From Plumapathes pennacea (lineage: Eukaryota > Cnidaria > Anthozoa > Antipatharia > Myriopathidae): 64,000 nt of DNA. The notes beneath the pieces were generated by a model that worked only from the letters and a program-made list of their open reading frames with translations, did not search any database and was not told where the DNA came from. Below, piece by piece: positions 1-34,815 of this stretch; within the stretch, counting starts at the first letter, position 1, and the number at the start of each line of letters is the position of its first letter. The DNA lies in NCBI GenBank assembly GCA_964036295.1, contig OZ038469.1, positions 16,487,591 through 16,551,590 of the forward strand. Reading direction: 5' to 3'. The position numbers and the translations under genes were made by a program.

Positions 1-2029
1 CGATCTCGCTATAGTTTACGGCTGATTGACATGAGGGTCAGTTTGATGCATCCCTTTTAGTACTTACAGATATCATGGTACGCACTAGAAGGGATGCACC
101 AAAACGACTTTATCTCAGAGGTCTCACACGACCAAAGAAATTGAAGTCGGAATGAATGAAAAGTGTTTATCAGTGACGGAGATACAAATTAAAGATGTTT
201 GTTCAGTTTAATATAACTTTCTACCGCGATCTCGCTATAGTTTACGGCTGATTGACATAAGGGTCATTTTGATGTATCCCTTTTAATACTTACAGATATC
301 GTGGTACGCACTAGAAGGGATGCACCAAAACGACCTTATCTCAGAGGTCTCACAGGACCAAGGAAATTGAAGTCCGGATGAATGAAAACTGTTTGTGAGT
401 AACGGATATGCAAATTAACGATAATTATTGAGTTAATTTAACTTTCTACCGCGATCTCGCTATAGTTTACGGCTGATTGACATGAGGGTCAGTTTGATGC
501 ATCCCTTTTAGTACTTACAGATATCATGTTACGCACTAGAAGGGATGCACCAAAACGACTTTATCTCAGAGGTCTCACACGACCAAGGAAATTGAAGTCG
601 GAATGAATGAAAAGTGTTTATCAGTGACGGAGATACAAATTAAAGATGTTTGTTGAGTTTAATATAACTTTCTACCGCGATCTCGCTATAGTTTACGGCT
701 GATTGACATAAGGGTCATTTTGATGTATCCCTTTTAGTACTTACAGATATCGTGGTACGCACTAGAAGGGATGCACCAAAACGACCTTATCTCAGAGGTC
801 TCACACGACCAAGGAAATTGAAGTCCGGATGAATGAAAACTGATTGTGAGTAACGGAGATGCAAATTAACGATAATCAAGGAGTTAATTTAACTTTCTAC
901 CGCGATCTTGCTATAGTATACGGCTGATTGACATGAGGGTCAGTTTGATGCATCCCTTTTAGTACTTACAGATATCGTGGTACGCACTAGAAGGGATGCA
1001 CCAAAACGACCTTATCTCATAGGTCTCACACGACCAAGGAAATTGAAGTCGGAATGAATGAAAACTGTTTATCAGTGACGGAGATACAAATTAAAGATGA
1101 TTTTTGAGTTTAATATTACTTTCTACCGCGATCTCGCTATAGTTTACGGCTGATTGACAAAAGGGTCATTTTGATGCATCCCGTTTAGTACTTACAGATA
1201 TCGTGGTACGCACTAGAGGGGATGCACCAAAACGACCTTATCTCATAGGTCTCACACGACCAAGGAAATTGAAGTCCGGATGAATGAAAACTGATTATGT
1301 GTAACGGAGATGCAAATTAACGATAATTATTGAGTTAATATAACTTTCTACCGCGATCTCGCTATAGTTTACGGCTGATTGACATGAGAGTCATTTTGAT
1401 GCATCCCTTTTAGTACTTACAGATATCGTGGTACGTACTTGAAGGGATGCACCAAAACGACCTTATCTCAGAGGTCTCACACGACCAAGGAAATTGAAGT
1501 CCGGATGAATGAAAACTGTTTATGAGTGACGGAGATACACATTAACGATAATTAATGAATTTAATTTAACTTTCTACAGCGATCTCGCTATAGTTTACGG
1601 CTGATTGACATGAGGGTCATTTTGATGCATCCCTTTTAGTACTTACAGATATCGTGGTACGCACTAGAAGGGATGCACCAGAACAACCTTATCTCAGAGG
1701 TCTCACACGACCAAAGAAATTGAAGTCCGGATGAATGAAAACTGTTTATCAGTAACGGAGGTACAAATTAAAGATGTTGTTGAGTTTAAAATAACTTTCT
1801 ACCGCGATCTCGCTATAGTTTACGTCTGATTGACATGAGGGTCATTTTGTTGCATCCCTTTTAGTACTTACAGATATCGTGGTAGGCACTAGAAGGGATG
1901 CACCAAAACGACCTTATCTCAGAGATCTCACACGACCAAGGAAATTGAAGTCCGGATGAATGAAAACTGTTTATGAGTAACGGAGATGCAAATTAACGAT
2001 ATTTATTGAGTTAATTTAACTTTCTACCG

Positions 2030-4508
2030 CGATCTCGCTATAGTTTACGGCTGATTGACATGAGGGTCAGTTTGATGCATCCCTTTTAGTACTTACAGAT
2101 ATCATGGTACGCACTAGAAGGGATGCACGAAAACGACTTTATCTCAGAGGTCTCACACGACCAAAGAAATTGAAGTCGGAATGAATGAAAAGTGTTTATC
2201 AGTGACGGAGATACAAATTAAAGATGTTTGTTGAGTTTAATATAACTTTCTACCGCGATCTCGCTATAGTTTACGGCTGATTGACATAAGGGTCATTTTG
2301 ATGTATCCCTTTTAGTACTTACAGATATCGTGGTACGCACTAGAAGGGATGCACCAAAACGACCTTATCTCAGAGGTCTCACAGGACCAAGGAAATTGAA
2401 GTCCGGATGAATGAAAACTGTTTGTGAGTAACGGATATGCAAATTAACGATAATCAAGAAGTTAATTTAACTTTCTACCGCGATCTTGCTATAGTATACG
2501 GCTGATTGACATGAGGGTCAGTTTGATGCATCCCTTTTAGTACTTACAGATATCGTGGTACGCACTAGAAGGGATGCACCAAAACGACCTTATCTCATAG
2601 GTCTCACACGACCAAGGAAATTGAAGTCGGAATGAATGAAAACTGTTTATCAGTGACGGAGATACAAATTAAAGATATTTTTTGAGTTTAATATAACTTT
2701 CTACCGCGATCTCGCTATAGTTTACGGCTGATTGACATAAGGGTCATTTTGATGCATCCCGTTTAGTACTTACAGATATCGTGGTACGCACTAGAAGGGA
2801 TGCACCAAAACGACCTTATCTCATAGGTCTCACACGACCAAGGAAATTGAAGTCCGGATGAATGAAAACTGATTATGTGTAACGGAGATGCAAATTAACG
2901 ATAATTATTGAGTTAATATAACTTTCTACCGCGATCTCGCTATAGTTTACGGCTGATTGACATGAGAGTCATTTTGATGCATCCCTTTTAGTACTTACAG
3001 ATGTCGTGGTACGTACTTGAAGGGATGCACCAAAACGACCTTATCTCAGAGGTCTCACAGGACCAAGGAAATTGAAGTCCGGACAATAAAAACTGTTTAT
3101 GAGTAACGGAGATACACATTAACGATAATTAATGAATTTAATTAAACATTCTACCGCGATCTCGCTATAGTTTCCGGCTGATTGACATGAGGATCATTTT
3201 GATGTATCCCTTTTAGTACTTACAGATATCGTTGTACGCACTAGAAGGGATGCACCAAAACGACCTTATCTCAGAGGTCTCACACGACCAAAAAAATTGA
3301 AGTCCGGATGAATGAAAACTGTTTATGAGCGACGAAGATAAAAATTAAAGATGTCTGTTGAGTTTAATTTAGCTTTCTACAGTGATCTCGCTATAGTTTA
3401 CGGCTGATTGACATGAGGGTCATTTTGATGCATCCCTTTTAGTACTTACAGATATCGTGGTACGCACTAGAAGGGATGCACCAAAACGACCTTATCTCAG
3501 AGATCTCACACGACCAAGGAAATTGAAGTCCGGATGAATGAAAACTGTTTATGAGTAACGGAGATGCAAATTAATGATAATTAATGAGTTAATTTAACTT
3601 TCTACCGCGATCTCGCTATAATTTACAGCTGATTGACATGAGGGTCAGTTTGATGCATCCCTTTTAGTACTTACAGATATCGTGGTACGCACTAGAAGGG
3701 ATGCACTAAAACGACCTTATCTCATAGGTCTCACACGACCAAGGAAATTGAAGTCCGGATGAATGAAAACTGTTTATCAGTGACGGAGATACAAATTAAA
3801 GATGATTGTTGAGTTTAATTTAACTTTCTACCGCGATCTCGCTATAGTTTACGGCTGATTGACATTAGGGTCATTTTGATGCATCTTTTTTAGTACTTAC
3901 AGATATCGTGGTACGTACTTGAAGGATGCACCAAAACGACCTTATCTCATAGGTCTCACACGACCAAGGAAATTGAAGTCCGGATGAATGAAAACTGTTT
4001 ATGAGTAACGGAGATGCAAATTAACGATAATTAATGAGTTAATTTAACTTTCTACCGCGATCTCGCTATAGTTTACGGCTGATTGACATAAGGGTCAATT
4101 TGATGTATCCCTTTTAGTACTTACAGATATCGTGGTACGCACTAGAAGGGATGCACCAAAACGACCTTATCTCATAGGTCTCACACGACCAAGGAAATTG
4201 AAGTCCGGATGAATGAAAACTGTTTATCAGTGACGGAGATACAAATTAAAGATGTTTGTTGAGTTTAATATAACTTTCTACCGCGATCTCGCTATAGTTT
4301 ACGGCTGATTGACAATAGGGTCATTTTGATGCATCCCTTTTAGTACTTACAGATATCGTGGTACGCACTAGAAGGGATGCACCAAAACGACCTTATCTCA
4401 TAGGTCTCACACGACCAAGGAAATTGAAGTCCGGATGAATGAAAACTGATTATGTGTAACGGAGATGCAAATTAACGATAATTATTGAGTTAATATAACT
4501 TTCTACCG
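2030..4508 (+). repeat. Higher-order repeat copy 1 (11 monomers, 2479 bp)
   Basis: Monomers start at 2030, 2256, 2481, 2707, 2932, 3157, 3383, 3608, 3834, 4058 and 4284. Diagnostic variants mark the individual monomers: ATCATGGTACG in the first, CTTGCTATAGTATACGG in the third, ATCCCGTTTAG in the fourth, a TTTCCGGCTG in the sixth and a one-base deletion (GAAGGATGC) in the ninth. The same ordered set of variants recurs 2479 bp later. Confidence 0.95.
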
Positions 4509-6987
4509 CGATCTCGCTATAGTTTACGGCTGATTGACATGAGGGTCAGTTTGATGCATCCCTTTTAGTACTTACAGATATCATGGTACGCACTAGAAGG
4601 GATGCACGAAAACGACTTTATCTCAGAGGTCTCACACGACCAAAGAAATTGAAGTCGGAATGAATGAAAAGTGTTTATCAGTGACGGAGATACAAATTAA
4701 AGATGTTTGTTGAGTTTAATATAACTTTCTACCGCGATCTCGCTATAGTTTACGGCTGATTGACATAAGGGTCATTTTGATGTATCCCTTTTAGTACTTA
4801 CAGATATCGTGGTACGCACTAGAAGGGATGCACCAAAACGACCTTATCTCAGAGGTCTCACAGGACCAAGGAAATTGAAGTCCGGATGAATGAAAACTGT
4901 TTGTGAGTAACGGATATGCAAATTAACGATAATCAAGAAGTTAATTTAACTTTCTACCGCGATCTTGCTATAGTATACGGCTGATTGACATGAGGGTCAG
5001 TTTGATGCATCCCTTTTAGTACTTACAGATATCGTGGTACGCACTAGAAGGGATGCACGAAAACGACTTTATCTCATAGGTCTCACACGACCAAGGAAAT
5101 TGAAGTCGGAATGAATGAAAACTGTTTATCAGTGACGGAGATACAAATTAAAGATATTTTTTGAGTTTAATATAACTTTCTACCGCGATCTCGCTATAGT
5201 TTACGGCTGATTGACATAAGGGTCATTTTGATGCATCCCGTTTAGTACTTACAGATATCGTGGTACGCACTAGAAGGGATGCACCAAAACGACCTTATCT
5301 CATAGGTCTCACACGACCAAGGAAATTGAAGTCCGGATGAATGAAAACTGATTATGTGTAACGGAGATGCAAATTAACGATAATTATTGAGTTAATATAA
5401 CTTTCTACCGCGATCTCGCTATAGTTTACGGCTGATTGACATGAGAGTCATTTTGATGCATCCCTTTTAGTACTTACAGATGTCGTGGTACGTACTTGAA
5501 GGGATGCACCAAAACGACCTTATCTCAGAGGTCTCACAGGACCAAGGAAATTGAAGTCCGGACAATAAAAACTGTTTATGAGTAACGGAGATACACATTA
5601 ACGATAATTAATGAATTTAATTAAACATTCTACCGCGATCTCGCTATAGTTTCCGGCTGATTGACATGAGGATCATTTTGATGTATCCCTTTTAGTACTT
5701 ACAGATATCGTTGTACGCACTAGAAGGGATGCACCAAAACGACCTTATCTCAGAAGTCTCACACGACCAAAAAAATTGAAGTCCGGATGAATGAAAACTG
5801 TTTATGAGCGACGAAGATAAAAATTAAAGATGTCTGTTGAGTTTAATTTAGCTTTTTACAGTGATCTCGCTATAGTTTACGGCTGATTGACATGAGGGTC
5901 ATTTTGATGCATCCCTTTTAGTACTTACAGATATCGTGGTACGCACTAGAAGGGATGCACCAAAACGACCTTATCTCAGAGATCTCACACGACCAAGGAA
6001 ATTGAAGTCCGGATGAATGAAAACTGTTTATGAGTAACGGAGATGCAAATTAATGATAATTAATGAGTTAATTTAACTTTCTACCGCGATCTCGCTATAA
6101 TTTACAGCTGATTGACATGAGGGTCAGTTTGATGCATCCCTTTTAGTACTTACAGATATCGTGGTACGCACTAGAAGGGATGCACCAAAACGACCTTATC
6201 TCATAGGTCTCACACGACCAAGGAAATTGAAGTCCGGATGAATGAAAACTGTTTATCAGTGACGGAGATACAAATTAAAGATGATTGTTGAGTTTAATTT
6301 AACTTTCTACCGCGATCTCGCTATAGTTTACGGCTGATTGACATTAGGGTCATTTTGATGCATCTTTTTTAGTACTTACAGATATCGTGGTACGTACTTG
6401 AAGGATGCACCAAAACGACCTTATCTCATAGGTCTCACACGACCAAGGAAATTGAAGTCCGGATGAATGAAAACTGTTTATGAGTAACGGAGATGCAAAT
6501 TAACGATAATTAATGAGTTAATTTAACTTTCTACCGCGATCTCGCTATAGTTTACGGCTGATTGACATAAGGGTCAATTTGATGTATCCCTTTTAGTACT
6601 TACAGATATCGTGGTACGCACTAGAAGGGATGCACCAAAACGACCTTATCTCATAGGTCTCACACGACCAAGGAAATTGAAGTCCGGATGAATGAAAACT
6701 GTTTATCAGTGACGGAGATACAAATTAAAGATGTTTGTTGAGTTTAATTTAACTTTCTACCGCGATCTCGCTATAGTTTACGGCTGATTGACAATAGGGT
6801 CATTTTGATGCATCCCTTTTAGTACTTACAGATATCGTGGTACGCACTAGAAGGGATGCACCAAAACGACCTTATCTCATAGGTCTCACACGACCAAGGA
6901 AATTGAAGTCCGGATGAATGAAAACTGATTATGTGTAACGGAGATGCAAATTAACGATAATTATTGAGTTAATATAACTTTCTACCG
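4509..6987 (+). repeat. Higher-order repeat copy 2
   Basis: Repeats copy 1 base for base over 2479 bp, apart from scattered substitutions. One example is GCACGAAAACGACTTT in its third monomer, where copy 1 has GCACCAAAACGACCTT. The start offset (4509 minus 2030) equals that of the next copy exactly. Confidence 0.95.
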
Positions 6988-9207
6988 CGATCTCGCTATA
7001 GTTTACGGCTGATTGACATGAGGGTCAGTTTGATGCATCCCTTTTAGTACTTACAGATATCATGGTACGCACTAGAAGGGATGCACGAAAACGACTTTAT
7101 CTCAGAGGTCTCACACGACCAAAGAAATTGAAGTCGGAATGAATGAAAAGTGTTTATCAGTGACGGAGATACAAATTAAAGATGTTTGTTGAGTTTAATA
7201 TAACTTTCTACCGCGATCTCGCTATAGTTTACGGCTGATTGACATAAGGGTCATTTTGATGTATCCCTTTTAGTACTTACAGATATCGTGGTACGCACTA
7301 GAAGGGATGCACCAAAACGACCTTATCTCAGAGGTCTCACAGGACCAAGGAAATTGAAGTCCGGATGAATGAAAACTGTTTGTGAGTAACGGATATGCAA
7401 ATTAACGATAATCAAGAAGTTAATTTAACTTTTTACCGCGATCTTGCTATAGTATACGGCTGATTGACATGAGGGTCAGTTTGATGCATCCCTTTTAGTA
7501 CTTACAGATATCGTGGTACGCACTAGAAGGGATGCACCAAAACGACCTTATCTCATAGGTCTCACACGACCAAGGAAATTGAAGTCGGAATGAATGAAAA
7601 CTGTTTATCAGTGACGGAGATACAAATTAAAGATATTTTTTGAGTTTAATATAACTTTCTACCGCGATCTCGCTATAGTTTACGGCTGATTGACATAAGG
7701 GCCATTTTGATGCATCCCGTTTAGTACTTACAGATATCGTGGTACGCACTAGAAGGGATGCACCAAAACGACCTTATCTCATAGGTCTCACACGACCAAG
7801 GAAATTGAAGTCCGGATGAATGAAAACTGATTATGTGTAACGGAGATGCAAATTAACGATAATTATTGAGTTAATATAACTTTCTACCGCGATCTCGCTA
7901 TAGTTTACGGCTGATTGACATGAGAGTCATTTTGATGCATCCCTTTTAGTACTTACAGATGTCGTGGTACGTACTTGAAGGGATGCACCAAAACGACCTT
8001 ATCTCAGAGGTCTCACAGGACCAAGGAAATTGAAGTCCGGACAATAAAAACTGTTTATGAGTAACGGAGATACACATTAACGATAATTAATGAATTTAAT
8101 TAAACATTCTACCGCGATCTCGCTATAGTTTCCGGCTGATTGACATGAGGATCATTTTGATGTATCCCTTTTAGTACTTACAGATATCGTTGTACGCACT
8201 AGAAGGGATGCACCAAAACGACCTTATCTCAGAAGTCTCACACGACCAAAAAAATTGAAGTCCGGATGAATGAAAACTGTTTATGAGCGACGAAGATAAA
8301 AATTAAAGATGTCTGTTGAGTTTAATTTAGCTTTTTACAGTGATCTCGCTATAGTTTACGGCTGATTGACATGAGGGTCATTTTGATGCATCCCTTTTAG
8401 TACTTACAGATATCGTGGTACGCACTAGAAGGGATGCACCAAAACGACCTTATCTCAGAGATCTCACACGACCAAGGAAATTGAAGTCCGGATGAATGAA
8501 AACTGTTTATGAGTAACGGAGATGCAAATTAATGATAATTAATGAGTTAATTTAACTTTCTACCGCGATCTCGCTATAATTTACAGCTGATTGACATGAG
8601 GGTCAGTTTGATGCATCCCTTTTAGTACTTACAGATATCGTGGTACGCACTAGAAGGGATGCACCAAAACGACCTTATCTCATAGGTCTCACACGACCAA
8701 GGAAATTGAAGTCCGGATGAATGAAAACTGTTTATCAGTGACGGAGATACAAATTAAAGATGATTGTTGAGTTTAATTTAGCTTTCTACCGCGATCTCGC
8801 TATAGTTTACGGCTGATTGACAATAGGGTCATTTTGATGCATCTTTTTTAGTACTTACAGATATCGTGGTACGTACTTGAAGGATGCACCAAAACGACCT
8901 TATCTCATAGGTCTCACACGACCAAGGAAATTGAAGTCCGGATGAATGAAAACTGTTTATGAGTAACGGAGATGCAAATTAACGATAATTAATGAGTTAA
9001 TTTAACTTTCTACCGCGATCTCGCTATAGTTTACGGCTGATTGACATAAAGGTCAATTTGATGTATCCCTTTTAGTACTTACAGATATCGTGGTACGCAC
9101 TAGAAGGGATGCACCAAAACGACCTTATCTCATAGGTCTCACACGACCAAGGAAATTGAAGTCCGGATGAATGAAAACTGTTTATCAGTGACGGAGATAC
9201 AAATTAA
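6988..9207 (+). repeat. Higher-order repeat copy 3, truncated
   Basis: Follows the order of copies 1 and 2 for about 2220 bp. It departs near 9207, at the end of its tenth monomer, where GGATAATTAATG replaces AGATGTTTGTTG. From there to 11324 the monomers belong to older or differently arranged variants. Confidence 0.9.
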
Positions 9208-12122
9208 GGATAATTAATGAATTTAATTTAACTTTCTACAGCGATCTCGCTATACTTTACCGCTGATTAAGATGAGGATTATTTTGATGCATCCCTTCTA
9301 GTACTTACCGATATCGTGGTACGCACTAGAAGGGATGCACCAAAATGATCTTATCTCAGAGGTCTCACACGACCAAGGAAATTGAAGTCCGGATGAATGA
9401 AAACTGTTTTTGAGTAACGGAGATACAAATTAACGATAATTAATGAGTTAATTTAACTTTCTACAGTGATCTTGCTATAGTTAACGGCTGATTGACATGA
9501 GGGTCATTTTGATGCATCCCTTTTAGTACTTACAGATATCGTGGTACGTACTTGAAGGGATGCACCAAAACGACCTTATCTCAGAGGTCTCACACGACCA
9601 AGGAAATTGAAGTCCGGATGAATGAAAACTGTTTATGAGTAACGGAGATACAAATTAACGATAATTAATGAATTTAATTTAACTTTCTACAGCGATCTCG
9701 CTATAGTTTACGGCTGATTGACATGAGGGTCATTTTGATGCATCCCTTTTAGTACTTACAGATATTGTGGTACGCACTAGAAGGGATGCACCAAAACGAC
9801 CTTATCTCAGAGGTCTTACACGACCAAGGAAATTGAAGTCCGGATGAATGAAAACTGTTTATGAGTAACGGAGATGCAATTTAACGATAATCAAGGAGTT
9901 AATTTAACTTTCTACCGCGATCTTGCTATAGTATACGGCTGATTGACATGAGGGTCAGTTTGATGCATCCCTTTTAGTACTTACAGATATCGTGGTACGC
10001 ACTAGAAGGGATGCACCAAAACGACCTTATCTCAGAGGTCTCACACGACCAAGGAAATTGAAGTCGGAATGAATGAAAACTGTTTATCAGTGACGGAGAT
10101 ACAAATTAAAGATGTTTGTTCAGTTTAATATAACTTTCTACCGCGATCTCGCTATAGTTTACGGCTGATTGACATAAGGGTCATTTTGATGCATCCCGTT
10201 TAGTACTTACAGATATCGTGGTACGCACTAGAAGGGATGCACCAAAACGACCTTATCTCAGAGGTCTCACACGACCAAGGAAATTGAAGTCCGGATGAAT
10301 GAAAACTGTTTATGAGTAACGGAGATGCAAATTAACGATAATTATTGAGTTAATTTAACTTTCTACCGCGATCTCGCTATAGTTTACGGCTGATTGACAT
10401 GAGGGTCATTTTGATGCATCCCTTTTAGTACTTACAGATATCGTGGTACGTACTTGAAGGGATGCACCAAAACGACCTTACCTCATAGGTCTCACACGAC
10501 CAAGAAAATTGAAGTCCGGATGAATGAAAACTGATTATGTGTAACGGAGATGCAAATTAACGATAATTATTGAGTTAATTTATCTTTCTACCGCGATCTC
10601 GCTATAGTTTACGGCTGATTGACATGAGAGTCATTTTGATGCATCCCTTTTAGTACTTACAGATATCGTGGTACGTACTTGAAGGATGCACCAAAACGAC
10701 CTTATCTCAGAGGTCTCACACGACCAAGGAAATTGAAGTCCGGATGAATGAAAACTGTTTATGAGTGACGGAGATACACATTAACGATAATTAATGAATT
10801 CATTTAACTTTCTACCGCGATCTCGCTATAGTTTACGACTGATTGACATGAGGGTCAGTTTGATGCATCCCGTTTAGTACTTACAGATATCGTGGTACGC
10901 ACTAGAAGGGATGCACCAAAACGACCTTATCTCAGAGGTCTCACACGACCAAGGAAATTCAAGTCCGGATGAATGAAAACTGTTTATGTGTAACGGAGAT
11001 GCAAATTAACGATAATTATTGAGTTAATTTAACTTTCTACGGCGATCTCGCTATAGTTTACGACTGATTGACATGAGGGTCAGTTTGATGCATCCCTTTT
11101 AGTACTTACCGATATCGTGGTACGCACTAGAAGGGATGCACCAAAACGACCTTATCTCATATAGGTCTCACACAACCAAGGAAATTGAAGTCCGGATGAA
11201 TGAAAACTGTTTATCAGTAACGGAGATACAAATTAAAGATGTTGTTGAGTTTAAAATAACTTTCTACCGCGATCTCGCTATAGTTTACGTCTGATTGACA
11301 TGAGGGTCATCTTGTTGCATCCTTCAAAGCTGCAGTGCCTGACTGCCGAGCCATATCTGAAAATGAACATTGAATATGCTTGGACTACAAGAAACATAAA
11401 ATACTACTATTTAGAAAACAGAAGACAGAAAAACAAAAGAAAATGGAAAGGAAAAATATGGAGAGAAAGGAAAGAAATGGGTAAACAGTCTTACAAATTC
11501 TAATGGGAACCCAAAATGTTAAAACATTCATAAATACAGCAGTAAATACAGCCACATTATTATCATTGTAGGTGGACATCCATTATTGGATAACCTCGTG
11601 CTGCGTTTAAACCCCTTTGATTCAAACTGCCTACAATATTTATTCTCTCTGTTTATTTTTAATTGGCGGATGTATGTTGTGGATAACAAAAAGGCTATTT
11701 TTCTCTTTGCTTATTTACTAATTTAACCGGTGTTTCTGTGTAAAATCTACAGGATACATCTTTTTTTTTTTTTTTTTTTTTGCAGATAAATATCGATGTA
11801 CAGACATAAACTTTGCAAGGAAATTAAATGGTAAACCTGGATAGTCCCATTTCTTCGTCAGCGGCTTCTCAAATCTGAACAAAAAAAAAGGAAGATGCTT
11901 AGAAAAGTAACACATCTATCGAGAATATCCTTGGCGCAACTAGGTTTACAGAGAAGAGTACATACTTGGTCATTCCTACACCAACAACAAATACACCATC
12001 CGCCATGTTGGTTAAAACTAGTTCACAGGCTTCGCGCGGTTAGCAGCACATTTAATAAATAATTTCCACTTGGCGAAGCGCCTCGTGAGTCCACAAGATT
12101 TTGACCATGTGATGACGTAAAT

Positions 12123-14326: not shown

Positions 14327-14509
14327 GACGTGTCAACATCCGGATATTCGGTGATAGGGAAAAAGTCCGAATCATAGCGTGTCCGGTGACGTGTCAACAT
14401 CCGGATATTCGGTGATAGGGAAAAAGTCCGAATCATAACGTGTCCGGTGACGTGTCAACATCCGGATATTCGGTGATAGGGAAAAAGTCCGAATCATAGC
14501 GTGTCCGGT
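14327..14509. repeat. 61 bp minisatellite, three copies
   Basis: Three head-to-tail copies start at 14327, 14388 and 14449, each opening GACGTGTCAACATCCGGA and closing GTGTCCGGT. They are nearly identical; the middle copy has ATAACG where the outer ones have ATAGCG. This is a recent local duplication. The short ORFs through it are a by-product of its periodicity. Confidence 0.95.
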
Positions 14510-15006
14510 GCCGACATTTCCATGACACGTTAAATGTTCGGAACACTGAAACGTAATGACACTCTCGTATTCTTTAAGAATACGAGTTCGTATCGGCAAA
14601 TGTCATGCACCGTGCACGCCTCTTTTGACACAGTGCTACGCAACTTTGACAAATGACGGTGGACGATACTGCACGTGACGTCATAGCATACTGGAATCCG
14701 ATTACAGGGACGGCCAAAAAATGCGAGACCAAAAGGATTTAATTTAGCTTTTTATTTTGTTTGAGTTAGTTTGAGAAAAGGTCATCACCGATAAAATTGG
14801 GGCAGGGTAAAATTGAAGAGACTGCATGCGTCCGGGCATGCATCGTGGATTGCGGTTCCATTAGATTTTGTGTGCCAAGGTAAAGGAAACCGAATCACGT
14901 CATATTAAGTCATCCTGCTGAGCTGAATCGTGCTAATAGCAAAAGGTCACTTCCGATTAATTCCACAGGGTTTGTTTTCATCACGTTTCTCGGTGTAATG
15001 AAAGGA

Positions 15007-15013
15007 TATAAAT
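15007..15013 (+). promoter_or_regulatory. TATA box of the secreted repeat-protein gene
   Basis: TATAAAT lies 67 bp upstream of the signal-peptide ATG at 15074. The expected transcription start is therefore near 15037-15043, giving a short 5' UTR. Position and orientation fit the gene model. Confidence 0.55.
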
Positions 15014-15073
15014 TGAGTGGAACTAAACGACATATTCATATGGACCCGTCTCCACACCAGTGTTGACCCCAAG

Positions 15074-17166
15074 ATGTTCATCCGTTTGTCTCTGTGCATA
15101 GCAGCAGTATCGCTGTTTTTTTCAGCAGGTAAGATAACGTGTAGAGTCACGTGAATGTAAATACCATGTTTAAAACGCGGCAATAGGGGTCTTTACAATA
15201 GCTAAACAGTTATATGAACATACGACACGGAAAATGAAATCAAAATTCAGGGTCTTTTAAACGGTTGAACTGCTGCGCGGAAAATTGAAACTGGAAACAC
15301 AGGTCCGACTCGCAGGGGCTTCGCTGCTGAATGTTGCGTTGCTCAACTTTTAACTTTTAGCAATCTTCACTTTTATTCATAAACTTTTACAGAATATTGT
15401 CTATTTCTGGTGGTACTTGCTCTTTTTCCTCTCCCGTGTCGCCGCGCAGAGTTTGTTCGGATCGGTTAATGTAGCGACATACAACGAACAATTCAAAGAT
15501 ATCAATATGCCCAGGAATGTAGTAGAACATCACCCCATCACTCTAACTCCTTACCTAATACAATACATGACGACAAATCATACCACGTAATCAGTTGATT
15601 AAAGCACTGTTAGACTAACAACCATCACACAGTAAACTGGCTTTAGAAATAACCAGAGTCCCGGCATCTTTTATTTAAGACCCTGCTGTCTGTTACTCTT
15701 GCTCCGCCACGTGGAAACTCGCCTATCAAAATGACGTCAATGGAAACACTCTCGCTGGTTCCAAGTATCTTCTCATGGCCGCTTTGTCGTCTGGGGCCCG
15801 GGTTCGAGTTTTCCTGGAGTCCTTCTCAAACGGCACAGGGCAGAGATACAGCACGGAAGCAGACAATCTCTCCATTAATGGATGCCACGTTTATGCACAG
15901 TTGCTACAGCATGTCAGCAAAGCAGGCTTCAGTGGTTTCCAAGACAACGCCTATTGGTGGTGGCTGATCGTGTCCACGCGCGGGTCAGTGCAGATGGTCC
16001 GCTACAACGTGGGGTCTAACACCCCACGTGGGGAAAGCAACGTTCGCGCTAAAATCAAATGGTTCGTGAAATTCCCTCAGAGAGAATATGCCCCTGCGAC
16101 CTACTCAAACGACATAAACGGAAACGCGGTTTCTGGAAGTTTGACAACTCTCGCATCTCACGTGAAGAACGGTGCTGACATCCGGGGATTTAGTTCGCAG
16201 TCCTACGCCTTCCCATTTCAAAACATTGCCATTGAACGCGGATCTGGCGTCGTAGCGGGGCAAACCGTAGACCACATCAGCCAGACAGGTAGCTCCGGGA
16301 GTTTGAAATTCCAAAATAATCCATACTGGTGGTTCACCATAGTGACCTCGTAAGGACAGCGTGACATGTCACGCTGGACCGTCGGGCTCCATCAGTCACG
16401 CGGTCACACCAACGACAAAGTCGCGACGGAGTGGTTTGCTGATCCGTGTTGGCAACTCGTCTACAGCCACAGCGCAAAAGGTACTGCTATTACAGGCGAA
16501 CTCAGCGCTTTGGTTCAGAAAATCCTCGCCGGCCACCGGGTACGTTTCCAGTTCCCTAATAATGAGTTTTACACAGCCGAAGCCGACAACCTGTCGATTC
16601 GAAACGGACACGTGACAGCCCAAGCTCTGAAGCACGTCAGCAAGGCGAGTCAGACCAAATTCCAAGACGACGCTTATTGGTACTGGCTCATGGTTTCCAC
16701 CACAGGAACGGTTCGCGCTACTCGGTACAACGTTGGCGAGCACAAACACCGCGGTGATAGCACAAGCAAATATGACGTAAAATGGTTCGTCGATACCAGG
16801 CCCTGGAAACAAGTCCTGTCCCATGATTCCAACGGCGCTGTTTTGGCGGGAAGTAGAGCTACTCTGATCCAGGCGGTGAGCAGCGGTGCGGCAGTGCGCT
16901 GCGTGCAGGGGACTGGGTACGCGTTTCCCGCGCAGAATCTGCAGATCTCAACTGATGGTCAGCACGTACATGCGCAGACTCTTAACCACGTTAGCATGAG
17001 TGGAACTGGGGCTAGCGAAGTGGCGATCCAGTCCAACGCATACTGGTGGTTTACCATCGTCTTCACAACTGGGAAGAGGGACATGTCGCGCTGGACCGTC
17101 GGGGAGCACATCGATCGCGGGCACACCCAGGATAAGGTGGCTACCAAGTGGTTTGTGAATTACTGA
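15074..17166 (+). CDS. Secreted four-repeat protein with in-frame stop
   Basis: Exons 15074-15128 and 15680-17166 join in phase 1 (GCAG|gtaag ... ttatttaag|ACCC). Exon 1 encodes a hydrophobic signal peptide (MFIRLSLCIAAVSLFFSA). Exon 2 holds four related repeats of about 120 residues in A-B-A-B order. All share NG or KG plus a small-residue turn, AL..V..GA.VR, a Tyr/Phe-rich core, HVS or HIS, Y-W-W/Y-W/F-x-hydrophobic-V, a RW or RYNVG motif, an HRG-like turn and KWFV. The frame stays open for 513 codons except for TAA at 16351-16353 (codon 243), inside the second repeat where the fourth has Thr. Product is thus either 242 residues or, if the stop is bypassed, about 512. I do not recognise the family. 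It could be a decayed gene, an assembly error or an alternatively spliced gene. A TATA box (15007) and AATAAA (17473) flank it. Confidence 0.75.
16351..16353 (+). other. In-frame TAA inside the secreted repeat protein
   Basis: Upstream and downstream frames are the same (frame 1) and the repeat alignment carries straight through: V-T-S-stop-G-Q-R-D-M-S here against V-F-T-T-G-K-R-D-M-S in repeat four. The stop lies in GTAAGG, which resembles a 5' splice site, so the transcript might alternatively be spliced here. Confidence 0.85.
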
Positions 17167-17472
17167 TTCATGTTGCTATGGAGATAATTTGTTGTAATTT
17201 GGATATCTGAAATTTAAGCTTGATCTTTGACACAATCTGAGAAAATTCACGACATTTTTGTAAAGTTTATTGGCTGTAGATCTGAACAGGAAGCAACATT
17301 GTTTCTGTTCGCTTTTGCTTTTTGAGAGTTTTATGTTGCCATGTCTCAAATCAGACTATCGGTGTTTAGGGAGATCGGGAACTATCAGAGTTCCCGTTCA
17401 TAACTTCTTTTTTCCTTTATTGATTGTTGAAGTTACCTAGTGAAACTATAACACGCCCAATCTCATGCAAGT

Positions 17473-17488
17473 AATAAACTGTAATAAA
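17473..17488 (+). terminator. Two AATAAA polyadenylation signals
   Basis: AATAAA occurs at 17473-17478 and 17483-17488, about 310 bp after the stop codon of the secreted repeat protein. They are the first such signals downstream on the plus strand, so they probably end its 3' UTR. Confidence 0.5.
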
Positions 17489-17714
17489 CGGCTGTTGGTC
17501 AAAGATTTGCTCTTATTTCTCGCGCCCCGCGCTGTTACATCCCAAGGAAGTTTCCTGAAAATTTCATGCGACTTTGAGATTAAGTCAAAAATGAACATTT
17601 TTTCTAAAATAACTGCAAAGGCTATAGCTTATGTTATTTTCTCGAAAAGGGCTGATTTGGAAATTCCAGTCTATCACCTCGTAACACAGATTTATCTCCA
17701 AATATTCATTGGTT

Positions 17715-18892
17715 TTACCAAGGCAGTTGAACTCATCAACAAGCTCGAAAGATTGGTAACTGTATTAGAAGTGACGGAGAAAAAAATTAACGATAATTAA
17801 TGAGTGTACTTTAATTTTCTATTGTAACCCCGTTATAATTTATGGCTGATTGACATGAGGGTTAGTTTGATGCATCTCTTAAGGGAACATACAGTCTTAA
17901 GGGATGCACCAGAGTGACCTTGTCTCGAAGGCCTCACAAGACCAAGGCACTTGAACTCATCAGCAAATGTGGGTGAATGAGAACTGTAAAAGAGTAACGA
18001 GAGACAAATTAACGGTAATTAAATGAGTTTAAATGAATTTTCTGCTGAAATCTCGCAAAAGTTTATGGCTGATTGACATGAAGGTCATGCATCCCTTCTA
18101 TTAATTAAAGATATCGTGGTACGCACTACTAACCGACCCTATCTCGGAGCGGCAGTTGAAATTCCTATGAATGAAAACTGTATATAAATCACGGAGATAC
18201 AAATTAACGATAATTAATTAGTTTAATTTAATTTTCTGCTGCAATCTCGCAAAAATTTACGGCTGATTGACATGAAAGTCAGTTTGATGCATCCCTTCTA
18301 TACTTACAGATATCGTGGTACACACTAGAAGGGATGAATCAAAACGACCTTATCTCAGAGGTTTCACACGACCAAGGAAACTGAAGCCCCTAAATCACGG
18401 AGATACAAATTAACGATAATTAAGTAGTTTAATTTAATTTTCTGCTGCGATCTCGCAAAAGTTTACGGCTGATTGACATGAAGGTCAGTTTGATGCATCC
18501 CTTCTAGTACTTACAGATATCGTGGTACGCACTAGAAGGGATGCACCAAAACAACCTTATGTCAAAGGACTCACACAACCAAGGCAGTCGAAGTTATAAG
18601 CAAGTCCGGGTGAATGAAAACTGTTTATGAGTGACGGAGATACAAATTAATGGTAATTAATGAATTTAATTAAAATTTTTTCTGCGATCTCGCAAAAGTT
18701 TACGGCTGATTGACACTATGAGGGTTAGTTTGATGCATCCCTTCTAGTACTTACAGCCATATCGTGGTACGCTCTAGAAGGGATGCACCAAAACGACCTT
18801 ATCTCAGAAGCCTAACACGATCAAGGCAGTTGAAGTCATGAGGAAGTCCGGAAGAATGAAGACTGTATGTAACTGACAAAGAGGCAACTTAA
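17715..18892. repeat. Second, diverged island of the same satellite
   Basis: Five monomers are marked by the GGCTGATTGACA motif near 17843, 18067, 18252, 18467 and 18702, with a partial monomer at the left end. They are in the same orientation as the main array but more diverged, with GCAAAAGTTTACGG in place of GCTATAGTTTACGG and variable lengths. The hairpin arms are kept, and are often perfect here (CCCTTCTAGT facing ACTAGAAGGG). The island begins mid-monomer and is separated from the main array by about 6.4 kb containing the secreted-protein gene. Confidence 0.92.
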
Positions 18893-19311
18893 AAATACAA
18901 TACAAAAGGACCAGTTTATCTGACCTTGAAACACAAGGATTTCTATGCAATTATTTAACGGTTTGACCTGAAAATCACTGTGCAGAGTTGACATGCATAT
19001 AGGTTTGTGCAATGAAATAGATGAAGTTGAATGATGAATTATGAACTAAGTAAGTAGATATAGCAAGGTAACCACACATTCAGTTTGAAACTCCTTTTTT
19101 GAAAAGCTAGAAGTATTGGTCAATGTTTTGCTCTTATTTTGACTGGAATCACAAACAGTAAGAGCCTTCCCTAAAAACAAGATCAACTGCGAAACTTCTC
19201 TTCCTTGTGGTCGAGTTTTTGTTAGGGAGCTGGCATCGGGAGGTTTTAGTAGATAATTTTCAAGTAATATATAAGTATAAAAGGAGAACCGTTAGACAAG
19301 CTTGCTGCGTC
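18893..19311. other. Spacer between satellite island and kinase 1
   Basis: About 420 bp of AT-rich sequence that would contain the 3' UTR of kinase 1, which is transcribed toward it. I see no coding signal and no clear AATAAA on the minus strand. Confidence 0.4.
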
Positions 19312-21455
19312 TCATTCTGTGACGCCAGACTCGGACAGCCGTCTTCCAATACCGCTTTCTACTTTCATTCGCCTAAACTTCAACATCGCTCGAATAGCGT
19401 TAATAGCAGAAGGGAACTTTACGCGCTTTGCTTCCTGTGACTCCGTTCCTGCGCGTCCAAGTGTCAATTCCGCAATCCACGGATGTTTCAGCGCCTCTGA
19501 CGAAGTAAGTCTCTCGCCCGGTTGTAAAACAATCAACTTCAACACCAGATCTTTGGCGCTCAGGGCGATGTTGTCCCAATAAGGTGAAGGTAGCGAAAAT
19601 CGGCCTTGTAAAATAGACAACAGCAGTTTCTCGTTGTTATCGCTCCAAAATGGCGGGTAGCCGACCAGCAAAATGAACAGTATCACTCCGCATGCCCACA
19701 TATCGACAGGCTGACCAATGGGCTCTTCCAAGATAGTTTCCGGGGCAAGAAACAATGGAGCTCCGCCTGCGTCACAGTTGATGACGTCACGGTCACGTGG
19801 GAGCCGCCGCGCCAAACCAAAGTCAGTGAGCTTGATGGTCATGTGACCAGCTCCTCGAGTCAAGAGGATATTGTCGGGTTTGATGTCGCGATGTACAATC
19901 CTGTTCTGGTGAAGATAGTCTAGTGCATGAAGAAGCTTCGAGAAGAGAATGCCAAAGATTAGTAACAACCCAGTTCTGTTCTCTAAAACCGTCTGTGCAA
20001 CTACCTGAGCATGTGACTCACCCTTTCGGCACTTCACCCCAACTTTCGCTTGGCTTATATTTTATATGGGAGGGTAGTATTTCGCTCTGCTGGGGATTGT
20101 ATTCACGGAAGCTTTGCTAAGATTTATTTTGTGACTGAAAAAGCTTTTACTTTGTAAGATCTTTATACCACAGCCAAAAAATTATACAAACAACTTAAAC
20201 TTTTCTTTGATTCTGTCCGTGTACCATTTTAAAACCTTCATTCTTTATTGCTGCGGTGAGCTTTAGAGATCAAAGTGCACGGCGAAGGCGGACATAAATG
20301 GCCATTTAAGTCCAAAGTATCTAGCTAGTAAATATAATCTGTGTCGTGACCCTGTGCGTTCCCAAAGACTGACGACGAAGTTATGTTAAAAGCATTTTTA
20401 CCTTTGACACTCCAGCTCTTGACTAAACTTCTCGAAGTAGTCCCGATAATTACTTCTTTCAGAATCATAGTATTACCAGAAATTCTTCTGCTAAACCGAC
20501 AGCCAAGAACATGTCTTTCATCGACTAAACTAAAGTTCAGCAAATGAGGATATTTAAATGCAACTACACCCAGTTTATAATAAATAGAAGAATGCCCGAG
20601 GGCCTTCGATTCACATTATGTCGATATATGCTCTTCTTGTCTGTCTGATTGACATACGATTGCGAAATTGTAAATCACTGCTCAGTTGTTTATCTCAAGA
20701 AGAGAACACCTGGAACCTTCAGCTGACTCCTTATAGTCTGTTCTTTTGACATCCCCTTAGGAAATATTGTTCAAGGACAGCGTAACGTCCCTGGCCAACT
20801 CTCTTTCTGGCAAATGGTCTCTTTGCTTCTCGTAATTGTAGTACAGTGAAAACAGGCTGGACGCAAGCACAGCAATGAAAATATTTGATCCTTTGGCGCT
20901 TGCGTTTGTGCTTTCGCTTTCGTCCAACCTGTTTTCACTGTACAATAAGGATTGCCGCTTGCGCTTATGCTTGTATCGCTCGTGAAGTCCACACGTCACC
21001 ACAGACAACTCGTGCCACAGAGTATTAACCCACGCGTTTGTCGCCTTTGTCACAAAACACTTTAAACAAAACCTGCCAGTCCTTACCTGTTTAGTAATAC
21101 TTCCAGCTTGGTGTTGGCTATACGACGTCTGCCTAATAATCTCATCAAACAGACTCTCGCCATTCACAAATTCCATCACCAAGAAGCGCTCAGCTGCTCC
21201 TGCTTGATCCGCGAATGCGCCGTACAGCGACACGATATTCGCGTGGTGGAGGTTTCTACAGATTTCTATTTCATTCTGAACTTCCTCCTCCTCTCTTTGA
21301 TTCTCTGGTTGCTGAATCTCCTTGACAGCGACCACGTTTCCCGAACTAATTTCGATACATTTGTAAACTTTTGCGAACGATCCTTGTCCAAGGAGCCGCT
21401 GGATCCGATAGTTTTCTTCAAACGAACAAAACTCTAAGCTGGAATACGTCGGCAT
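19312..21455 (-). CDS. CaMK-like Ser/Thr protein kinase 1
   Basis: Two exons on the minus strand, 21455-21087 and 19935-19312, join at ACTAAACAG|gtaagg and tctcgaag|CTTCTT, phase 0, intron 1151 bp. Product 330 residues. I chose the ATG at 21455 because the frame upstream has only non-ATG starts. Motifs: glycine loop GQGSFAKV (23-30), Lys45 in VAVKE, HRDIKPDN with Asp140, DFG at 161-163, GAPLFLAPE ending at 189, then CGVILFILLVGYPPFW and LKHPWI. The late kinase domain closely follows the CaMKII pattern. After it comes a short basic tail (about residues 290-330, with AMLKFRRMK) that recalls a CaMK autoinhibitory segment, but there is no association domain. All catalytic residues are present, so an active cytosolic kinase is expected; its substrate is unknown. 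Kinases 2 and 3 in this window are paralogues. Confidence 0.9.
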
Positions 21456-22165
21456 GTTTATCAACAGTGTGACGAAGAGCTAAATGAATTGGGAGTTTCT
21501 TTTCCTGCTTTAATACTGGCGGGGTCAGCGGAACCACGCGCTGGAAGATACCCGGTCCCGAATTAGCTCTTTACGTCAGCAGGAGTCTGATTGATAAGAT
21601 TCCATTCACGATTATCAGGACTGTTCTAGATACTTTCTAGGACGCACCTTTTTTGACTCTACCAGTACGGGCTTGTCTTGTTATTAGGAGGAAATTGTTA
21701 AGTACAAGACACTCAAGACCTTTGACGTCATAACCATTGGGCCGTCAATATTGTAACTGTACTGAACTAAAAAATATCAGACATGATTGTTTTCATTGAA
21801 ACAAACGGCCAGTTTTATTCTTCGTGATTGGTTTTTCATTCCTCGTAAATAGCTTGGAATAGTGTTTGAGTGATGACAGACTGCTTGACTGAGATCATAG
21901 AGGTTATCGGTGAAGTTGCAAATTATAACACGTACTACCTATTTCATTTTGTAAACAAGGAAAGGAAAGATTCGTTACAGGAGGCTCAGAACACTCACTT
22001 AGTCGTTCCATATTTTTTTCGTAAAGATATATTTAGGACGCCATTGAAGCCATGCAGCCGATATCAGTTATACGTACATCAGTTTATCAAGTGCGCGCAT
22101 ACAGTTCACCGATGTGTAGCAAATTCCAAGACCTTCAAATCATGTGTGTACGCGGGCGCGTGCTA

Positions 22166-22913
22166 AGGGTGCGTTCGATTGGGTCTATTCCGGAAAAGGA
22201 ATGGCTAAAATAACCCAAAGTTGTGCTTGTTCTGAGGATGATTTTATTCATCAAAATTGTTTCAAAAGCCTGGATGTTTGCATGATTAAACAGCTTCCGA
22301 TACATCCTATTCTTAATCAACCCCAATCAAAGAATTTTACCGATCAGGGCCCGGTTTTTCAAAGCACGATTAGGCTAATCCTGGATTAGGTCTAAACTTT
22401 CTTGTCATTTTTTTAGCCTGAAAGCGTGAAAGTTTCGTCCACAACGACTTTCTTGATAATGTTTTAAGCTGGAACAAGCTTTCTAATCCATCTTCGAACA
22501 AAACCAAGCAGTTTAATGACAGAGAGGTTGAGAGAAAGAATTTCGTTAATCTTGGATTAGCTTAATCGACCTTCGAAAAACCGGGCCCAGCAGGGCTATT
22601 TCTATTCCGGGATAAACCCCATTCTTTTGGAGCTATTCTGTCCACTCCTGTTCCGGAATAGACAGTAATCGTGTTCTTTTGGGACCTTTCTGATTCTGGA
22701 ATGAACGGAATAGTATTCCGTTCATTCTGCTCCCGATATAAGAATTGATGGCCTAACGGTTTATTCCGGCGGAAGGAATGTACAGAAGAGCGGAAATCGT
22801 GTTCTTTTGGTATTTTTGTCACGTTAGCTATTTTGCTTTTGGAATAGCGCACAGTCCGTGTAATCTGTTTATCCCTATTCCGGATTAGAAATAGACCCAA
22901 AAGAACGCACCCT
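22166..22913. mobile_element. MITE-like DNA transposon with terminal inverted repeats
   Basis: The left end AGGGTGCGTTCGATTGGG at 22166 faces its near-complement CCCAAAAGAACGCACCCT ending at 22913; similarity continues into TCTATTCCGGAA-like sequence. Ends of the type GGGTGCGTTC are common in hAT-like elements, but I see no clean 8 bp target-site duplication. There is no transposase ORF, so it is non-autonomous. The motif GTGTTCTTTTGG recurs inside the right half. Another element is inserted in it. Confidence 0.75.
22347..22588. mobile_element. Inner MITE nested in the larger element
   Basis: The ends GGGCCCGGTTTTTC and GAAAAACCGGGCCC are inverted repeats; similarity extends inward through GATTAGGCTAATCC against GGATTAGCTTAATC. 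Length 242 bp, no ORF. Its position inside the 22166-22913 element shows that it inserted later. A degraded left half of a related element is at 48496-48580. Confidence 0.8.
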
Positions 22914-25900
22914 GAATAGTGTGTGAAGGATTTTGTGCGAACAACTATTTATATGGTATGCATGCAACTAAAAGTTAATATTACATCAAGTGCTATGGTC
23001 TTTTTACTCGCATCCTGTTTATAAAACACACTCATGATGACACTTGCTTTTGTTTATTTCTTAGCACTGATGGGTCCGTCATAAAATTGCCTTTGAAAGG
23101 GTGTTGTTCATTTATTCACGTTTGGGTTTCAAATTTAACATCCTGTTGCTGACTTCTTGGTCGAGTTAGTCTGTGCTTGCTTTTCTAGATTTTGTCCGTT
23201 CTCGTATGGTTGTTCCATTTTATATTCATTAGTTTCATTATATTTATTTATTTTATTGCCATTTTTCTCTTTCTTGTTCGGCAATGACGGGCCATAATTT
23301 TAACCCATTTGTCGTTATCCGTATATTGGCTCTCCTGATATTTTTCTCCTTGATATCCGTTCTTTCTTTTAGCCGCTCTTCCGCGCGTTCAGGCGACAGC
23401 AAAACTAGCCGCTTCCCAAAAGTTAAAAAAGGTAATAAATAGTAATAATAAAAAAGTCAGGGACTAAAAAAAACCCCCTCTGTCGTCGTAAAGACGAAAG
23501 CAAATATAAACTAGTGACTATTTACAGTGTCGTGTAAACTTATATATATGACTCTGTTAAAGAAATTGAACCATTTCCTTATTAAATCAGGTAGGCATTT
23601 AGGGTTACTTTGCACATATTGTTGAACATCAGGCAAGTTTTTAGATCATGATCATCGGCAGGCGTATGGCCGCACTTTAACTTCCATGATAACTTTCGGC
23701 GTTATAGCCGGCAGTGAATGTTTTTTGATTGCATGAAACAGGAATTTTGAAGTGACACTGCCTTTATGACCTTGGCTCGCAAGGGCTGAGGGAAGCCGCC
23801 AAAAACTACAAAAATTCACTGTTTACTGCGATCGACGGACTCAACACTTGCCAGATCAGATCGCTGACTAAAAGCATGGCATTTCGAGTATACACAAGAA
23901 CATTTTGCGGTTTCGTTTACGTTTGCCCTTCACACACTCTCAGAAAACGCTTTTTGTTTAAATTCAGTGCTGTTTCCTGAATTCCACGACTCTCTTTATA
24001 GTGTCGAGAGACTGCTGAAGTGCAGCTTATAGTGCCAGACGCTCAGTAATGACTTTGCCGGAAAACCACACACAATTCTTTTACTATTCGCAAACTCTGG
24101 GATAGTGATATTCTTTCGCTATTTCCTGAGCTTGGCGGGCAATACTGTGGTTTTTAAGTAATATATTCAAATACTTAGACGTGGAAGCGAGCCAGACAGG
24201 CGCCGGACAGTTTAACTCTCCCACTTCTTTCCTTTTCATTGTCCTTCTCGTAAATTTACCACTACACTATTCTTTCCACATGCTTCTTCTACGTTTTATG
24301 ATCTCCTTCTTCTCAATCCAGTTTGTCAGAGCTAGTCTTTTTCTTCTTTTCGTATTCTTCTTTTCTCCTTCGTGTCTGTTCTTGTTCTACGACTGCTCGT
24401 TCAGTCTTGTTCTTCTTGATAACTTCTTCTCAGTCTTGACTCCCTTAGAGCATTTAAACTGATTGCCCAACCGAATCACAACGCCGAACAGCTGCGAATA
24501 GTCACTGGCTCTTTGGAGTCTATTTATTCTCCTATATTTCCTATATCCGGCGTCAACTTGTAAGATTCAAAACGTCCATAAATCGTTAACATACTCACGA
24601 ATTTATTGATAAGATTATGTTCGATACTGGGTTCGGTATGCGGCTATAAGTCAGAGCTGAGTGATGGAATTCCAGGAGACAGAAATCTCAGCCATTTTGG
24701 CTCTGCCTTTCGGGTGCCGCCTGTTTGCGCAAAGGTTCTTTACTTTATGACCATGGCTGCCGCTGCAGCATATATACTTGTTTTCATTCAAATGTGACCC
24801 AAAGAGAAAAAGCGTCTCAAACTGGTAGCAGGGATCAGTCTACACATGATTGATCGATGGAGAGACATGTGTAATATCTTTTTCTATAAATTTTCATTAG
24901 TTTCAAATGGTCACATCTCTTTGGCAGCCAGTGTTGGTCCAATGCAGTGGAATTTAGTGTGGCTTGAAGCAGGGCCGGAAAAATGCAAGAGGTATCGATC
25001 ATTTTGACAGGATATTCAAACAAAATTGATCGTCTTGTTGGCACCGGCCTTACATGAGGAGTGATTAAAATGTTTATTGATGAGTTGCTATTCCAGGACT
25101 TCCTGACTCAGTCATTGGGTTGGTTTGCTCACACGAGGAGAGGCGATGCACAGCTTGACGTTCCGCGGACACATTGTAAGGAATTAAAAATTCAGGATAT
25201 TACTTTTTATTAGCTGGTACTCGTTTTGCCCTGCTTGTGGCAAAAGCGTTAGATTTTGCTTGCGTGTGTCCGCGGTCTGCTTCAATCCTTCATGCGTAAA
25301 ATCTTAAGAGTGCCTTTCAAATGAGACATGTCATGACTCTCTCAACACACGGACACACAGAGTGTGACAATTCAAATGAAAGCTGTCGATGAGCTCTTCT
25401 TGTATCTGTTTTTTTTTTCTTTTTTTTTCTTTTTTTTTTTTGCCTTTAACTTCCAAAAGTTAAAGCCATGAGATATGGCATGGTTTGATCGTCGACGTTT
25501 GGCACATATCCACACGAACGTTTCGTTGATAAAATCTACTAATCATCATCTTACAGCAACGCCACCAAAGTCAATAATTGTAGCATCCGACGACATTCCA
25601 CGATTACCAAGTTTTTGTAGCACAGTCACGTCCAGAAATCTAATCCGCACCATCAGCATGTACCTGTGTCACGTCTTGTTGGGCGATACAAATTTACGCA
25701 AAGCTTTGCAAGACCATTCAATTTGTTTCTGGACGAGAAAGATAGCAGCATGTTAATGAAATTTTAGTCTGATCTAAAAGAAATGCCCCCCTGCTGACAC
25801 ATAACCCTTCGTTTTATGTTTATGATTTCGCTTGCGTTTTTGCGGTCACCTCTTCATTTCTCACTTGAGTGAAGTGCTATCCACAGAGGCGCGAACTCTG

Positions 25901-28900: not shown

Positions 28901-28943
28901 AGCCTTGTGATCCGTTTTTATCTACTGACAGGATTCACCAGAA

Positions 28944-30995: not shown

Positions 30996-31154
30996 GATTG
31001 CACTTTTTTTGGTCAAAAATTTTTCATGTTCAATGGATTTTTAAAATGCACCTCCAATAATTATTCAAAATTCATGGATGTGCTTGAATTCTTAAATTAT
31101 TGTGTAAAAGTTGCCGAAATGTCCGCCATGTTGAAGTTTATTGAGTATCATAAT

Positions 31155-31160
31155 AATAAA
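31155..31160 (+). terminator. AATAAA after kinase 2
   Basis: First plus-strand AATAAA, 160 bp after the kinase 2 stop codon. It lies 250 bp before the 3' end of the convergent RPS27A coding region. Confidence 0.45.
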
Positions 31161-31325
31161 AACAAATATTACAAGACATTCTGAAACATTTCTACTTTTT
31201 TATGATGTTGCCATAACTATCCTGAGATGTGCTTGTTTGCAGAGAAATATTTTGAGCTTTGGAGTGAAATGGTTATCCCATTTCTTGGGAGTGTGTACGT
31301 GGGTTTCTTGTGGCGGTGAGGTCAT

Positions 31326-31349
31326 GGGTGGGTGGGTGGGTGGGGGGGG
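31326..31349 (+). other. G-quadruplex-forming tract
   Basis: Runs of GGGT repeat four times and end in an eight-G run. This fits the strict G3-loop1 pattern, among the most stable intramolecular G-quadruplex forms. It lies between the convergent 3' ends of kinase 2 and RPS27A, on the template strand of RPS27A. Confidence 0.75.
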
Positions 31350-31412
31350 ATTGGTTTGTCACCCACATGACTCAAAACATGACACACTATCTCAGAACAT
31401 ACACTTCATGAT

Positions 31413-33170
<1,758 letters not shown>

Positions 33171-33281
33171 GGCTTCAACTCAAAATCTGTCGTAAGGAAG
33201 AATTGGATTGTTAGTTTAAGATTCAACTACTTAGTGTGATTTACAGACTAATTCAAGCTTGTTACGTCCTCTCGAACTTAC

Positions 33282-33336
33282 GAGAAGCCACAGAATTACG
33301 ATGAAATGGCGGAAAGGCCACGAGAAAGAGGAAGGA
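33282..33336 (-). promoter_or_regulatory. Predicted 5'-UTR exon of RPS27A with TOP motif
   Basis: Read on the minus strand, a pyrimidine tract CCTTCCTCTTTCTC is followed by CGTGGCC and then TCTC|gtaagttc, a strong splice donor at 33281. The likely acceptor, ttacgacag, is 16 bases before the ATG. Terminal oligopyrimidine starts mark ribosomal protein mRNAs and couple translation to growth signalling (established for the family). The exact transcription start is inferred. Confidence 0.6.
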
Positions 33337-34692: not shown

Positions 34693-34698
34693 TTTATT
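34693..34698 (-). terminator. AATAAA of kinase 3
   Basis: TTTATT on the plus strand gives AATAAA on the minus strand, 118 bp beyond the kinase 3 stop codon. Confidence 0.45.
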
Positions 34699-34815
34699 CT
34701 GCTTTATGCTGCCCCTGCAGTTCACTTCAACCAGAACATGGTTGTGCTAATGTGTGCAGGAATGGGACGAACATCCCTGCCGAGCAAATTATGCAAACAC
34801 TCGTTTGCAGTCAAC

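Follow-up and report, generated by a model that had tools for sequence, protein, structure and literature searches.

An 11-monomer higher-order repeat in a dispersed hairpin satellite between duplicated gene segments of Plumapathes pennacea

The window analysed here comprises 64,000 nt of Plumapathes pennacea DNA (C8:16487591-16551590, in a genome of 290 Mb in 24 contigs) and opens within a satellite array. In full, this array spans C8:16483737-16498912 (15,176 bp, ∼15.2 kb) and holds 67 monomers of 225-226 bp. Its left end (L009:6147) lies 3.85 kb beyond the left edge of the window, and its right end falls in mid-monomer. Tandem Repeats Finder reported the part within the window as a single array with a 225-bp unit, the dimer scoring marginally better. 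Two paralogous segments flank the array and form a tandem segmental duplication, with a ∼92% identical gene segment on each side, and a second, short array of the same family follows the right-hand gene copy (Table 1). The remainder of the window contains a 61-bp tandem repeat (14327-14510; three copies, 98% matches) with no visible relation to the satellite, exons of protein kinase domains on both strands (19312-35592), apparently from tandem-duplicated kinase genes, and a TGF-beta family ligand with its propeptide on the minus strand (52508-53479).

Table 1. Features of the satellite locus; positions refer to the window, and negative positions lie to its left.
Feature	Position	Strand	Evidence or remark
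Part of the array within the window	1..11322	+	225-226-bp monomers; first 17 of 67 lie left of the window
Older layer: end of the 7-mer (CDLRQAB) and AB dimer duplication	1..2029	+	Monomer-type string; extends left past the window
HOR copy 1 (ABCDEFGHIHD)	2030..4508	+	Self-comparison, monomer types
Hairpin core, example from the first monomer of HOR copy 1	2076..2127	+	Present across monomers
HOR copy 2	4509..6987	+	6 of 2,479 bases differ from copy 1
Gene-conversion-like patch	5059..5068	+	Two linked slot-0 variants (5059, 5068) in slot 2 of copy 2
HOR copy 3, right end incomplete	6988..9207	+	Homology ends near 9207
Second duplication copy, start	11437..12050	+	Directly after the array; paralogue at -8661..-8052, 90%
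Paralogous gene segment	15003..17535	+	Partner at -6715..-3946; 93% over 2.0 kb, first half kilobase 80-89%
Short array of about six diverged monomers (same family)	17717..18895	+	Behind the second gene copy

Within the array, a block of 11 monomers (2,479 bp) is repeated 2.9 times at 2030-9207. A first-pass annotation of the window had proposed such an organisation, and its period and coordinates were confirmed: in an ungapped self-comparison of this region, identity peaked at lags of 2479 (99.7%) and 4958 (99.6%), and every other lag stayed at or below 73.9%. Counted in monomers and over all 67 of them, lag 11 was the best lag (mean identity 0.956), a value reached by none of 2,000 shuffles of the monomer order (maximum over lags 2-29, 0.939). 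The 31 core monomers were 99.71% identical within the same slot of the block (minimum 99.1%) and 91.9% identical between different slots, which together with the lag-11 signal is the identity pattern of a higher-order repeat (HOR). Several blocks stand in tandem, although 2.9 is a low number: of the three copies originally proposed, two are full and the third is incomplete. Any two blocks indeed differ at few sites, 6 for copies 1 and 2 and, counted over the first 2,220 bases, 7 for copies 2 and 3 and 8 for copies 1 and 3, corresponding to a divergence of 0.24-0.36%. The monomers, described there as diverged, are only mildly so, pairs among all 67 being 92.0% identical on average. A FastTree monomer tree likewise upheld the 11-fold periodicity, as 8 of the 11 slots formed their own group (three through identical copies, five with support of 0.78-1.0). 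Slot 3 did not, because its type recurs elsewhere in the array, and neither did slots 9 and 10, which copy 3 fills with other monomers. The pair of linked variants by which slot 2 of copy 2 resembles slot 0 would be best read as gene conversion.

Since block copies that are 99.6-99.8% identical fall into the range where assemblers can err, the chromosome itself might carry fewer copies of the 11-mer than the assembly. Judged from the assembled sequence, we consider such an artefact very improbable: the differences between the copies are scattered, other monomers follow the truncated copy 3, neither the window nor any fetched locus contains an N, and similar block copies are present in the arrays of C5, C6 and C11.

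The HOR appears to be the latest of several layers. Clustering of the monomers at 97% gave the type string XWVUGHTSLMCDLDLRQABABCDLRQ for the part preceding the HOR, ABCDEFGHIHD ABCDEFGHIHD ABCDEFGHIJK for the HOR and LMCDNLOP for the part after it, which we read as at least three probable layers, namely an old dimer alternation, an older 7-mer and the 11-mer. The dimer layer is visible as a mean identity of 0.934 at lag 2, compared with 0.911 at lag 1 and 0.916 at lag 3. The 7-mer (CDLRQAB) is accompanied by additional DL and AB duplications and has ABCD in common with the 11-mer. The monomers at the edges are diverged: nearest-neighbour identities were 0.903, 0.903 and 0.938 for monomers 0, 2 and 3 at the left end, 0.942 right after the HOR and 0.947 for the last monomer, and nearly all core monomers were at ≥0.99. 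Models of unequal exchange expect the lowest identities at the edges of an array, and the observed pattern roughly agrees. Recent amplification inside the array, as suggested by the first-pass annotation, is thus supported by the low divergence of the copies and the 11-fold periodicity; as to its mode, exchange is our preferred process, and the sequence alone is equally compatible with rolling-circle insertion.

The flanks give this amplification a setting. Because 11437..12050 matches -8661..-8052 on the left-hand side, the second unit of the segmental duplication begins right after the array. The gene segments themselves align at 92% (-5915..-3964 with 15552..17516) and, further upstream, at 80% (-6715..-6168 with 15003..15523), so that the divergence of the flanking paralogous segments is 7.5-10%, with 20% in one stretch. 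The duplicated gene (15775-17166) had no Pfam match at E 0.001. Its two copies are 94% alike in the C-terminal parts of the protein, and two further relatives are located on C1; the copy in the window has one in-frame stop upstream of the C-terminal part, and its partner (C8:16481834-16483291) is open over 496 codons. The satellite content of the two segments is very unequal, with 67 monomers in one and about six in the other, this unexpanded counterpart lying ∼6 kb away. If rates are alike, the 11-mer step, at 0.24-0.36%, would be much younger than the duplication of the segments, which differ by 7.5% in their best-matching 2 kb.

Duplicated segments with satellite were found in similar settings at two more loci, on C3 and C11. 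On C3, two segments that are 95-97% alike have four monomers each, and a third, 79-87% alike, has 29 within the 10 kb retrieved. The three segments of the C11 locus, whose likeness is 94-99% close to the satellite and 72-93% at greater distance, have two copies each and no growth; duplication therefore does not always lead to growth of the array.

Genome-wide, the 40-base core of the monomer was matched with ≤3 mismatches 414 times on the forward and 761 times on the reverse strand, and exact 10-base hairpin arms at hairpin spacing occurred 1,346 times; the control gave 0 in both searches. Members of the family are present on at least 12 of the 24 contigs (C1 to C12), at least seven of which have them at several places. 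Of the 37 exact matches to the 40-base core, 34 were in the 15.2-kb array, with one in the neighbouring short array and two on C9, a concentration that points to local homogenisation. In most other arrays, a 145-bp part of the monomer was matched, the remainder often being unmatched. Lag structure beyond that of 500 shuffles was detected in two of six arrays (the one on C8 and one on C11, the latter with a dimer of 415 bp), and none beyond chance was seen in the stretches from C5, C6 (two) and C3. Long block copies at 99% window identity were nevertheless present in the arrays of C5, C6 and C11. In C11:2248000-2277999 (L017-L019), the 415-bp unit consists of two hairpin monomers and the long block copies are spaced by 4,562 bp. 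This spacing is an 11-fold one (4562 = 11 x 415), as is a spacing on C5 (2596 = 11 x 236); we treated both as coincidence, and in the C5 array 7- and 4-fold distances were commoner than the 11-fold one. A sizeable array of the same hairpin family occupies C3:13755840-13769977 near the middle of that contig, with more members at 13.82-13.85 Mb.

The first-pass annotation had taken the HOR as marking a candidate for a centromere or heterochromatin. A centromeric or pericentromeric satellite could show such a structure, and arrays of the family do lie near the middle of C3 (13.76-13.85 Mb of 28.3) and C6 (11.14-12.11 Mb of 23.4). The anatomy of the locus does not bear this out. Centromeric satellites form large arrays at one main site per chromosome; here, the array measures only 15.2 kb, is intergenic and lies near a contig end (1.7 Mb away, in a contig of 18.2 Mb), and its family has several loci on at least seven contigs. 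A search of the whole array with the CENP-B box core motif, allowing ≤1 mismatch, returned 0 similar cores. We therefore give a centromeric role very little credence, and the array probably lacks one; HOR structure alone is no sign of a centromere.

Such dispersal could also arise if the satellite were the internal repeat of a transposon that spreads arrays, either one resembling a Helitron or one resembling a MITE, whose inverted repeats would be the hairpin arms. The wide distribution of the family, the 145-bp part that is matched more regularly than the remainder and the inverted repeat found in every array compared would all fit, and satellites of the oyster are described as residing in Helitrons (PMC10048060). 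A satellite carried by a transposon should have common flanks at different places. Among 13 satellite-masked records, picked as satellite matches, different contigs had no common flank at a fixed distance. What recurred was one ∼190-bp repeat at varying distances from the arrays, besides two single matches of ∼160-175 bp between C11 and C8, and the long common flanks were tandem segments on one contig. No transposon terminus or target-site duplication was recognised in this 13-record comparison, which was not a systematic search for them. We therefore regard a transposon origin as unlikely.

The family has a conserved 52-bp hairpin core, an inverted repeat present in every array compared. The DNA strand from 2060 to 2150 was predicted to fold at -16.7 kcal/mol (z -5.2), with 0 of 200 shuffles as stable, and the fold of the last 76 bases of the monomer was no more stable than that of its own shuffles. 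Over 36 representatives of 308 core copies, conservation was 91% in the inner arms, 89% in all arms, 86% in the loop and 80-82% in the core outside the hairpin. For 30 of these representatives with ≤4 gaps (L008:1757-1837 being replaced by a monomer from the window), standard pairs filled 83.4% of the pair cells, compared with 31.7-43.1% when the pairing was slid by 1-3 columns. Compensatory selection on the hairpin was considered and rejected, as the arms are conserved but the excess of covariation over shuffles is weak: the covariation score was 0.080 against 0.076 (67 of 500 shuffles as high), the excess of paired cells was matched in 45 of 500, and there were 6 pairs changed on both sides against 4.6 (108 of 500) and 10 cells with two-sided change against 6.8 (39 of 500). 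Mismatches of the A-C type outnumbered G-T on the plus strand (140 versus 80 cells, 43 column pairs), largely in a few columns, some of them outside the stem.

As a conjecture, the hairpin may aid slippage or breakage. In a stronger form, the 145-bp core with its 52-bp hairpin would be an active amplification module, in which the hairpin makes replication forks stall or break and thereby enlarges arrays at any site where a copy arrives or takes part in a gene duplication. If true, the family would be a dispersed satellite capable of expanding itself, and its HORs would record growth that the hairpin drove once genes had been duplicated in tandem; we consider this quite unlikely. A retrozyme (ribozyme-bearing tandem retroelement) origin was rejected, as no self-cleaving ribozyme was matched: Rfam gave 0 matches at gathering score in the whole window. 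A permissive search of 1-3000 returned 31 matches; every one was to a model of a microRNA precursor, none reached the gathering score of its model (best 35.9 bits versus 104), and we attribute them to chance resemblance with a long hairpin.

Taken together, we consider it likely that a small satellite seed was copied along with a tandem gene duplication, and that the array of one duplicate then grew by nested block duplications. In this model, the seed would first have been carried within the duplicated segment; one of the two resulting arrays would then have expanded while the other stayed small, through successive block duplications leading from dimers to the 7-mer and on to the 11-mer, itself copied to 2.9 units. 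Homologous monomers would probably have exchanged out of register, or been copied with slippage, with short patches of gene conversion in addition. Expansion of this array, rather than loss from the other, is the direction we favour in what is an unrooted comparison without an outgroup. The numbers of monomers in the paralogous segments of C8 (67 versus about six) and C3 (4 and 4 versus 29 in 10 kb) support the model; counting against it are the three duplicated segments of C11, none of which expanded, the regular lag structure in just two of the six arrays tested, and the basis of the comparison in 13 records picked as satellite matches rather than set against random intergenic places. On this reading, the C8 array would offer a readable early stage of HOR formation, in which blocks were duplicated in nested steps within one member of a segment pair; one long read could span it. 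For the question whether array growth follows gene duplication, the loci on C3 and C11 provide parallel cases.

Both aspects of the array can be set beside known systems. The first-pass annotation considered such organisation rarely described in non-bilaterian animals. We did find no paper on a cnidarian HOR satellite among the open-access papers searched, which says little as most subscription papers were outside their scope; HORs themselves are known well outside primates, being reported in reviews from beetles and many non-primate mammals (PMC5615363, PMC8122249, PMC7598501). In Porites corals, an intergenic satellite of 188 nt that includes a palindromic telomeric sequence has been described, and tandem duplicates make up almost a third of the genes in two long-read coral genomes (PMC10236652). 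The C8 array resembles it in being intergenic, of similar length and palindromic, in genomes rich in tandem gene duplicates; it differs, by description rather than by sequence alignment, in that TTAGGG/CCCTAA occurs only twice in the 67 monomers. Satellites dispersed outside heterochromatin are well known, and those of the Pacific oyster likewise form relatively short arrays at many chromosomal places (PMC10048060, PMC12692304). As described there, the oyster arrays are largely in Helitrons, unlike the C8 family, which has no common transposon flank in the 13 records. HORs are defined in reviews as adjacent monomers amplified jointly (PMC5615363, PMC8122249, PMC7598501). Beetle satellites such as TCAST of Tribolium castaneum provide examples in an invertebrate (PMC7598501, PMC5615363), although the HORs described there are usually dimeric or mixed with other elements, whereas that on C8 is a regular 11-mer of one family. 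The likeness to primate alpha satellite drawn by the first-pass annotation applies to the pattern, in which a multi-monomer block is the unit of amplification and identity is high between blocks and lower within them (PMC5615363, PMC8122249). It does not extend to the monomer, which is 225 bp instead of ∼170 bp, 92% alike (the figure given for alpha satellite monomers of the same HOR is 70-90%; PMC5615363) and devoid of the CENP-B-box-like core that part of the alpha satellite monomers carry, nor to the scale, with 2.9 blocks in 15 kb between genes. The array is a satellite of an already known sort, for which HOR patterns and dispersed arrays have both been described.
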